From NCBI RefSeq assembly GCF_003574315.2, contig NZ_AP025739.1, positions 186,001 through 250,000 of the forward strand: a stretch of DNA of 64,000 nt, given 5' to 3'. The stretch comes from Capsulimonas corticalis (GTDB taxonomy: Bacteria; Armatimonadota; Armatimonadia; Armatimonadales; Capsulimonadaceae). Below the pieces are notes generated by a model. That model was not told the origin of the DNA, did no database searches, and saw only the letters and a program-made list of their open reading frames with translations. The position numbers and the translations under genes were made by a program. Below are positions 61,881-63,848 of the stretch, one piece after another; position 1 is the first letter of the stretch; each line of letters begins with the position of its first letter.

Positions 61881-61919
61881 AGCGGAATGCTCCTTGAACG
61901 GGGCGAGGGAATTAGGAAC

Positions 61920-61949
61920 ATTATAGCAACGTCGGGGGAAGCCGGTCAA
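61920..61949 (-). promoter_or_regulatory. Promoter of GHL10 lipoprotein gene
   Basis: TTGACC (61944-61949), 18-nt spacer, perfect TATAAT (61920-61925) on the minus strand. Confidence 0.8.
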
Positions 61950-62011
61950 CCGTGCAGGCGTGAAATAAAATCGAGAGAGGCGTCTCGAACAGGCGTGCGG
62001 TTTTCGTGAGG

Positions 62012-62077
62012 TATATTAAATGGCAAGAGGCCAGCCGCTGAAACGACTGGCCTCCTAGTTCACAGGAAAGGAGGTGA
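62012..62077 (+). promoter_or_regulatory. Leader with alternative hairpins and strong SD of small peptide gene
   Basis: A TATATT -10 (62012-62017) is followed by a stem GAGGCCAG (62027-62034) / CTGGCCTC (62047-62054). The 3' arm contains CCTCC (62051-62055), which can pair instead with the GGAGG (62070-62074) of the ribosome site AAAGGAGGTGA. The two structures exclude each other, as in translational switches. Confidence 0.5.
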
Positions 62078-62082
62078 AATCC

Positions 62083-62178
62083 TTGCCTAGAACGAAACAA
62101 CGGCGGCTTTACGTCGCCATCAAGTGGATTACTGCGATTACATCACTAATTGCGGCTATCTGTCATCTCGTCAAGTAA
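62083..62178 (+). CDS. 31-residue hydrophobic peptide (type I toxin-like)
   Basis: TTG start at 62083, five nt after a near-perfect Shine-Dalgarno AAAGGAGGTGA, stop TAA at 62176. The peptide begins PRTKQRR, continues with a single amphipathic/hydrophobic helix 'LYVAIKWITAITSLIAAICH' and ends HLVK. This layout (basic N-terminus, one short membrane helix, about 30 residues) is that of type I toxin and holin-like toxin peptides. A 5' hairpin and a 3' terminator define a compact transcript of about 200 nt. No antisense antitoxin RNA is proven. Confidence 0.6.
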   Translation: MPRTKQRRLYVAIKWITAITSLIAAICHLVK

Positions 62179-62187
62179 CGGGCTGCC

Positions 62188-62223
62188 CCCGGAGCGGTGC
62201 GTAAACACCACTCCGGGACTTTT
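62188..62223 (+). terminator. Terminator of small peptide gene
   Basis: CCCGGAG-c-GGTG / CACC-a-CTCCGGG, an 11-bp stem with one mismatch and a 6-nt loop, followed by ACTTTT. Confidence 0.75.
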
Positions 62224-62292
62224 AAGAATGCTTAGTATTTATATACCACATTCCCCGTAATTTGAGCCTTTCTTATCCCTATTTGGAAATAA

Positions 62293-62321
62293 TTGTGATC
62301 GATCTGGGCGTCAGGTAAACT
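62293..62321 (+). promoter_or_regulatory. Promoter of gene at 62332
   Basis: TTGTGA (62293-62298), 17-nt spacer, TAAACT (62316-62321). The ATG follows after 10 nt, which leaves a leader of only 3-4 nt. Confidence 0.5.
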
Positions 62322-62331
62322 GAAGATAACC

Positions 62332-63096
62332 ATGAACGGCCCATTCCTTGAGTTGAACTTCTATCAGGACGAAAATGAGCAAGATTTCCTCGTTGCCCTG
62401 ATAGACTGCCTGATCGAAAACGGAGCCAAGCTGTCCGGCAAGGCGCTCATCCATCGCGGGCCAAATATCAATCAGCAGCCGTTTGGTTTCTCCTCGGACG
62501 AATATAAAGAGGAGATCGAAATTGCCTCAGTCGACGACCTGCGGGCGATCAAGGCCGTCGCAGATTCGCGTCTCGTCCAAGTCCCCATCACAAACGCCAG
62601 CGGCCTCACTCGCGGCGCGCCAGAACTCGTGACCGTGACAGGAATCTCTGAATGGGCCGCATCCCGGGGAGACAATCACCCTGTCGCGATTTGGGCGTCG
62701 GGAGATAAGCTCGACTTCGAAACGCTCCAGTCCCATGCGTTGGCGACTAAGGCCTACCGACGGTTTATCACGATCGTCGAACAACTTGCCCCCGCCTACG
62801 CAGCGATTACCATGGAATGCAGTCTTGAGTGCCCTATGGACCTTCGGCGCGATCCAAAGAGTTATGCATTCCATGACTTTTATCTTTCCAATCAATTCTT
62901 CGATGATGCTCTCATTTCGAGTGTCGTCGATTTGTGCTCCGACCGGTTCATCAAACCCTTGAGCAACGGCGTTTATATCTCAACGTCGGGTCTATTTATG
63001 CCTAAACCACCGAAGAGATCCAGCCAAAAACCCGACTTATCCACGCAGATCGGTCAATTGATTGCATCATCAGAACGATTTCGTACGTATCGATAA
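62332..63096 (+). CDS. Hypothetical protein, possible leaderless
   Basis: 254 residues, soluble, no signal peptide. Acidic N-terminus 'LELNFYQDENEQDFLVALID', a central mixed alpha/beta region with two Cys ('MECSLECPMD') and a basic Lys-rich C-terminus 'KPPKRSSQKPD'. I do not recognise a family. Lower GC than neighbours. It ends 5 nt before the phosphopantetheinyl transferase gene and may be cotranscribed. Confidence 0.65.
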   Translation: MNGPFLELNFYQDENEQDFLVALIDCLIENGAKLSGKALIHRGPNINQQPFGFSSDEYKEEIEIASVDDLRAIKAVADSRLVQVPITNASGLTRGAPELVTVTGISEWAASRGDNHPVAIWASGDKLDFETLQSHALATKAYRRFITIVEQLAPAYAAITMECSLECPMDLRRDPKSYAFHDFYLSNQFFDDALISSVVDLCSDRFIKPLSNGVYISTSGLFMPKPPKRSSQKPDLSTQIGQLIASSERFRTYR

Positions 63097-63101
63097 TAAC
63101 T

Positions 63102-63848
63102 ATGCCTCTCCCCTGCTTTGACGAAACACTTTGGCCGGTCGCCCCCGCGCCGCCGCTCGCCACGGACGCCGCCCATGTTTGGGGCGTCGCGCTGGACGAC
63201 GCGCGACTGCCTCTGGATGCGCTGGCCGCGACATTGAACGCCGCCGAGCGGGCGCGGGCGGCGCGGTTCAAGTTCGCGCGCGACCGTGATGCGTTCGTCA
63301 TCGCGCATGGGGCGCTTCGCGCGATCTTGTGTGGATATCTCGGGTTGGAGGCGCACGAGATTGTCTTTCAAGAAGGCGCTCACGGCAAACCTGAACTCAG
63401 CGGGGGGATGGCGGGGTCACTGCGTTTCAATCTCAGCCATACCCACGGCGCGGCGCTGGTGGGAGTGACGCGCAACGCAAGGATCGGCGTGGATATCGAA
63501 CGAATCCGGGAAGATACGCCGATCCTGGAGCTGGCGCGCCGTTTCTTCCATCCCGATGAAGCCCGGGCGCTGGAGCAAACGCCCTCGGATCAGCAGCTCA
63601 GCGCGTTTTTCACCACATGGACGCGCAAAGAAGCGCTGGTGAAGGCGCACGGCGACGGCATCGCGCATCTGCTCCAAGTATTCGCCGTCACGATCGGCCA
63701 GCCGCCAGAAGTCCTCGCCAAGCCTGTCGGCGAAGAACATCTCGATTGGCGCATTTACGACGCGCCGACGAATGCAAGCTATCGAGCGTCGGTCGCGTGC
63801 GACCGACCAATAACGCTGACACGAAGGCTTTGGCGGCCCACCTCTTAA
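63102..63848 (+). CDS. 4'-phosphopantetheinyl transferase (Sfp type)
   Basis: 248 residues. 'FARDRDAFVIAHGALRAIL', 'FNLSHTHGAALVGV', Mg-binding 'GVDIER' (Asp131, Glu133) and 'FFTTWTRKEALVKAHGDGI' are the Sfp-family signatures. It moves the 4'-phosphopantetheine arm from CoA onto carrier proteins of fatty-acid, polyketide or nonribosomal peptide synthases. No such synthase is in the window, so it is either stand-alone or its cluster lies to the right. Confidence 0.94.
   Translation: MPLPCFDETLWPVAPAPPLATDAAHVWGVALDDARLPLDALAATLNAAERARAARFKFARDRDAFVIAHGALRAILCGYLGLEAHEIVFQEGAHGKPELSGGMAGSLRFNLSHTHGAALVGVTRNARIGVDIERIREDTPILELARRFFHPDEARALEQTPSDQQLSAFFTTWTRKEALVKAHGDGIAHLLQVFAVTIGQPPEVLAKPVGEEHLDWRIYDAPTNASYRASVACDRPITLTRRLWRPTS

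Follow-up and report, generated by a model that had tools for sequence, protein, structure and literature searches.

What could a frame of 31 codons, set among predicted hairpins and preceded by a near-perfect Shine-Dalgarno sequence, be doing in the chromosome of Capsulimonas (Armatimonadota)? A first-pass annotation of this locus had recognized in it the architecture of type I toxin mRNAs, including a switch between mutually exclusive hairpins and a possible antisense start. In what follows, the window is the whole stretch of DNA that was analysed, 64,000 nucleotides long (positions 186001-250000 of the 7.65-Mb single-contig genome); positions are counted within it, and the features of the locus are compiled in Table 1.

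Table 1. Features of the peptide locus in window coordinates, with their state in the second Capsulimonas species (G014)
Feature	Positions	Strand	Remarks
Putative -10 of the peptide mRNA, TATATT (GAGGTATATT)	62012-62017	+	10/10 identical in G014; transcription start expected near 62024
H1, 5' hairpin GAGGCCAG-c-CG-loop-CG-a-CTGGCCTC	62027-62054	+	27/29 bases conserved, both changes in the loop; present in folds
H2, hairpin enclosing the Shine-Dalgarno sequence and TTG start	62058-62093	+	Six substitutions, structure kept
Shine-Dalgarno sequence AAAGGAGGTGA, 11 nt	62067-62077	+	11/11 conserved in G014
31-codon frame MPRTKQRRLYVAIKWITAITSLIAAICHLVK	62083-62178	+	TTG start, TAA stop; 28/31 residues identical in G014
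H3, hairpin inside the frame	62102-62118	+	Two substitutions keep pairs (G.U to A-U, C-G to U.G)
H4, hairpin inside the frame	62126-62161	+	In consensus fold; G.U to G-C at 62136/62151
H6, GC-rich 3' hairpin with short T-tail	62188-62217	+	Most pairs kept, loop changed; possible mRNA 3' end
Antisense promoter in the frame: -35 ATGACA (62166-62161), 18 nt, extended TG, -10 TGTAAT (62142-62137)	62137-62166	-	Start expected near 62130
Predicted antisense RNA, about 115 nt if ending after H1	62016-62130	-	Promoter, fold, synonymous constraint, terminator-like sites

Frames of 31 codons are common in the 64-kb window, and one has first to consider that an open frame, some hairpins and a purine-rich stretch came together by chance. 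This explanation, which we regard as scarcely credible, is refuted by comparison with a second Capsulimonas species, where conservation, a coding signature and retention of structure all speak against it. Indeed, both the peptide locus and its leader, which the earlier annotation had suggested looking for in related genomes, are found again in this congener, at the syntenic place on contig G014:C264. Gene order is retained, a GHL10-like lipoprotein gene (minus strand) preceding the peptide gene and a phosphopantetheinyl transferase gene following it. Positions 62018-62222 align with G014 over 205 nt without any gap and with 27 substitutions; identity rises from 51% over the 47 bases 5' of the -10 element to 100% over 62008-62017, and amounts to 86% in the leader and 92% in the frame. 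Within the frame, three amino-acid changes stand beside five synonymous ones (dN 0.044, dS 0.25), and six of the eight changes fall at third codon positions. The flanking genes have dS values of 0.8-1.2 against the same genome, which indicates that the peptide and the underlying RNA or DNA are both constrained.

Homologues were then sought more widely. When 291 genomes of the phylum were searched at the protein level, none turned up outside the genus, the matches at E > 0.03 being of low identity and mostly inside long frames. In public genome contigs, searched with exact peptide words that reach close relatives only, the sole relative was the congener, titled Capsulimonas sp. RYN_270. Viral contigs, phages and plasmids gave no homologue of the peptide (one Enterobacter plasmid matched at E 2); no family profile of Pfam, NCBIfam or PADLOC matched it, and one PHROG match was insignificant (E 0.18). 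Nothing in Rfam 15 reached the gathering score, the best weak matches (E 0.48 and 0.86) lying far below the cut-offs. A covariance model found no paralogue in the genome itself, where the locus is present as a single copy; the two best extra matches there are hairpins with T-tails behind tRNA-Gly-like genes, not paralogues, and the matches in two further genomes of the phylum proved to be hairpins without relation to the locus. As a side observation, two tRNA-Gly-like genes of the same genome (L054 and L055, at about 5591.3 and 5592.9 kb) are each followed by GCCAGTCGTT...CGACTGGC-TTTTTT, a stem resembling H1 read on the minus strand; H1 may thus have originated as a hairpin of the terminator type, or function as one. 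Judged by sequence comparison, the peptide gene is real, conserved and restricted to the genus.

The frame with a membrane helix described in the first-pass annotation is, thus, conserved, and the predicted properties of its product agree with that description: a basic N-terminus, one hydrophobic helix, a lysine at the C-terminus and a net charge of +6. AlphaFold places the helix at residues 6-30 (mean pLDDT 84), and the Kyte-Doolittle mean is 1.88 over the 19 residues from L9. Membrane type I toxins are described as peptides of fewer than 60 residues with a single helix and, in most cases, a basic C-terminal end; AapA1, for example, has 30 residues and a helix from S9 to L28 with basic ends on either side (PMC8309996). 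With fewer than 60 residues, a hydrophobic character and a predicted membrane helix, our peptide is of the size and hydrophobicity of a type I toxin. As for the signals upstream, the Shine-Dalgarno sequence is in place, and AAGGAGG occurs a single time in the 64 kb, both strands counted, namely as the ribosome site of the peptide gene. The proposed -10 box is in place and unchanged in the congener, but it comes without a recognizable -35, and a weight-matrix scan leaves it outside the best-scoring promoters of the region.

The 5' hairpin was found where the earlier annotation had put it; the switch built upon it fared otherwise. CCTCC (62051-62055) can indeed pair with GGAGG (62070-62074), but in prefixes of 57-100 nt there is a penalty of 2-8 kcal/mol for imposing this pairing. 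Its probability does not exceed 0.14 in the nascent window RNA or 0.009 in G014, and is of the order of 1e-7 to 1e-5 for the full RNA, where H1 and H2 coexist in the predicted folds instead of excluding each other. A conserved CCTCC:GGAGG switch is not supported; these values leave room for a brief role of the pairing during transcription in the window species. It is H2 that occupies the ribosome site. Its downstream partner of the Shine-Dalgarno core is UCCUU in the window and CCUUU, shifted by one register, in G014, and the core is paired in the predicted folds of both species, in other words a sequestered ribosome site. After six substitutions, the stability of H2 is unchanged or higher (P 0.008 and 0.026 against random substitutions of the same spectrum).

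The RNA as a whole behaves similarly. Over 209 nt, it folds at -83.9 kcal/mol, versus -58.8 for shuffles (z -6.0; G014, z -6.6). As many as 59 of its 61 pairs are kept in G014, where 54 are expected from random placement of the same substitutions (P 0.004), and the G014 fold is more stable than nearly all random mutants (MFE P 0.002); the reverse test, from G014 to the window, gives P 0.022 for the pairs and 0.003 for the MFE. One has to keep in mind that no pair of the consensus fold shows a double change between the two genomes, so that we speak of structure retention, not of covariation, which is not countable at a locus carried by two genomes only. Moreover, both strands fold equally well, and the structure is therefore silent on which of them is the RNA. 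The 5' and 3' ends are joined in the consensus fold by a 4-bp closing helix, GGCA:TGCC, which is missing from the minimum-energy fold of G014. Of the terminator claimed at the 3' end, the hairpin (H6) stands, but the tail is just ACTTTT (ACTTACG in G014) and the site is absent from the output of a terminator scan. Beyond H6, the non-coding stretch 62223-62275 (AGAATGCTTAG.AT.TATATACCA.ATTCC) is 83% identical between the species, and a weaker minus-strand TATAAA/TATAGA lies at 62243.

A short frame with a hairpin behind it and a gene of the same orientation further downstream also recalls a leader peptide or attenuator regulating that gene, be it the phosphopantetheinyl transferase (63102-63848) or a 254-aa gene lying before it. 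We consider this very unlikely, as the folds show no alternative anti-terminator pairing, the downstream gene comes with a conserved promoter of its own (TTGTGA-17-TAAACT, 62293-62321), and the 254-aa gene is missing at the syntenic place in G014. Regarding these neighbours, the 254-aa frame (62332-63096, plus strand) has no match in Pfam, NCBIfam, PADLOC or PHROGs, nor in 60 other genomes of the phylum; G014 runs directly to the transferase there, and the gene is, thus, either an insertion here or a loss in the congener. The plus-strand promoter just mentioned is identical in hexamers and spacing in both species and precedes the transferase gene in G014; in the window, 10 bases separate its -10 from the ATG that opens the 254-aa frame, suggesting a leaderless or nearly leaderless start.

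If the peptide gene is real, is there a second RNA opposite to it? The start proposed for an antisense RNA, TTGACG on the minus strand (62174-62169), had to be abandoned: it reads TTAACG in G014 and is outscored by another site a few bases further on, the in-frame promoter of Table 1. The counterpart of this promoter in G014, at the same position, is ATGCCA-18-TG-TATAAT, and the weight-matrix scores are 11.0 in the window and 12.9 in G014, sites scoring at least 11 occurring at 0.07 per kb and strand in the window. In both species, it ranks second on the minus strand behind the GHL10 promoter (15.4), and an independent consensus scan of G014 returned exactly these two promoters where 0.4 were expected, the in-frame one with 10/12 matches and the TG. 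The two hexamers are touched by two of the three amino-acid changes (T20I and C27W), with a better -10 from one and a weaker -35 from the other. How far the peptide itself dictates this promoter depends on the control: when the peptide was recoded with local codon usage, the score was reached in 0 of 4000 trials for each species, and with uniform codon choice in 2.0% (window) and 1.6% (G014), whereas shuffling the frame's own synonymous codons reached it in 22% and 6% of trials, respectively; the AT-rich codons, thus, account for part of it.

The synonymous sites add a further line of evidence. Codons 1-22 hold one synonymous change in 17.2 sites, versus four in 6.2 sites, the neutral level, for codons 23-31, upstream of the antisense -10. 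None of 1746 windows of 22 codons from the four flanking genes is as low (mean 0.53), keeping in mind that the cut at codon 22 was chosen post hoc, with the changes already seen; with shorter cuts, 0.7% (16 codons) and 0.1% (20 codons) of the flanking windows are as low. The starts of flanking genes are also slow, with pS of 0.25, 0.31 and 0.50, versus 0.06 in codons 1-22. This frozen part coincides with the region of the predicted antisense RNA and the ribosome-site hairpin.

These results bear directly on another explanation, namely a non-toxic small membrane protein whose structured leader controls translation (in response to temperature, a protein or an RNA, for example) with no antisense partner, the minus-strand promoter being a by-product of AT-rich codons. 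We hold this to be possible, if rather unlikely. It accounts for the conserved coding frame and ribosome-site hairpin, it agrees with the absence of toxin homology in Pfam and NCBIfam, and the codon-shuffle controls, which weaken the antisense promoter, are in its favour; it does not readily explain why the synonymous freeze affects codons 1-22, in and near the stretch opposite the predicted antisense RNA, and spares codons 23-31, or why the promoter keeps its spacing, TG and net strength though both hexamers have changed.

Where the antisense RNA would end is less clear-cut, its 3' end being without a strong T-tract. The c.a mismatch of H1 reads U.G on the minus strand, making the stem continuous there, and H1 could, thus, terminate an antisense RNA. 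Such an RNA would cover codons 1-16, the start, the Shine-Dalgarno sequence and the leader. A shorter form ending after H3, which on the minus strand of G014 has a T-rich tail behind it and was called terminator-like, or a longer one ending near 61970 are both possible from the sequence. A further interpretation is of the excludon type: as the same strand continues into the GHL10-like gene and the weak T-tail of H1 on the minus strand would permit read-through, the in-frame promoter could be a distal GHL10 promoter, with a long 5' leader antisense to the peptide mRNA. Transcription of GHL10, a predicted glycosyl-hydrolase-like lipoprotein, from this distal promoter would then silence a membrane peptide, an excludon-type control of a toxin. 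This seems quite unlikely to us, since GHL10 has its own conserved, near-consensus promoter (TTGACC-18-TG-TATAAT, 11/12) and a terminator-like site lies in between in the window (61988-61971), although the sequence of the latter is not conserved. The GHL10-like gene itself extends from 59988 to about 61882 on the minus strand, its extended promoter lies within 61882-61960, and its start codon is likely the GTG near 61882 rather than a TTG at 61949.

We, thus, favour, with a confidence slightly above even, a chromosomal locus resembling type I toxin-antitoxin systems, with a candidate antisense RNA overlapping the 5' part of the mRNA. Support at the sequence level extends to the gene, its frame, the predicted hairpins, the antisense promoter and the synonymous constraint; from these we infer both transcripts, silencing and toxicity. 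A weakly promoted mRNA (about 62024-62220, plus strand) would encode the 31-residue cationic peptide with its single membrane helix; having its Shine-Dalgarno sequence and TTG start inside a hairpin, this mRNA would be poorly translatable as made. The antisense RNA, starting from the in-frame promoter at about 62130 and running leftwards, would pair with the mRNA from the leader through the start to the middle of the frame, blocking translation and/or marking the duplex for RNase III; should it fall short, the peptide would be made and would disturb the membrane of its own cell. The type I architecture first proposed is supported, and conservation in the congener, structure kept through 27 substitutions, frozen 5' synonymous sites and the conserved in-frame antisense promoter strengthen it, but the CCTCC/GGAGG switch and the TTGACG start have to be left out.

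Several known systems offer points of comparison. TxpA/RatA and BsrG/SR4 of Bacillus subtilis likewise combine a small membrane peptide with a cis antisense RNA (predicted in Capsulimonas), but there the overlap is with the 3' end of the toxin mRNA, whereas the Capsulimonas antisense would overlap the 5' half. The same combination is found in msoT1/msoA1 of Microcystis aeruginosa (PMC12390103), which, like the present locus, is a type I candidate from beyond Proteobacteria, Firmicutes and Tenericutes; MsoT1, however, is predicted with two membrane helices, and that pair has been tested in E. coli, whereas ours is known from sequence. The closest likeness is to aapA/IsoA of Helicobacter pylori. 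In aapA3/IsoA3, a 30-residue frame carries the -10 box of an 80-nt antisense RNA encoded on the opposite strand, and the mRNA forms Shine-Dalgarno-masking hairpins with partners upstream and downstream (PMC6733600). Here too we find a peptide of 30-31 residues with a basic N-terminus, one helix (predicted at 6-30) and a basic C-terminal end; a Shine-Dalgarno sequence predicted to be sequestered in the primary mRNA, with anti-Shine-Dalgarno sequences on both sides; and a putative antisense promoter whose -10 lies in the frame, the antisense RNA being predicted on the opposite strand. The differences are the phylum, the single copy as opposed to several in H. pylori, the TTG start, the uncertain antisense ends and, in the predicted folds, no 5'-3' long-distance pairing stronger than GGCA:TGCC. 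This likeness is one of layout by description; no family model matched, and we do not claim family membership. If our interpretation holds, the locus would work like aapA/IsoA.

In a 2025 paper, type I systems were described as known just from Proteobacteria, Firmicutes and Tenericutes, with Cyanobacteria added as a candidate, and this narrow range was suggested to reflect biased search methods (PMC12390103). Among open-licence papers, we found no description of a type I system in Armatimonadota. If true, our reading would extend type I systems to this phylum, and a conserved Armatimonadota locus with a type I layout, read from raw sequence, supports the search-bias view (PMC12390103). It also suggests a recipe for searches that do not depend on homology: one would look for very short frames with an occluded ribosome site, an antisense promoter conserved within the frame and synonymous sites frozen beneath it.
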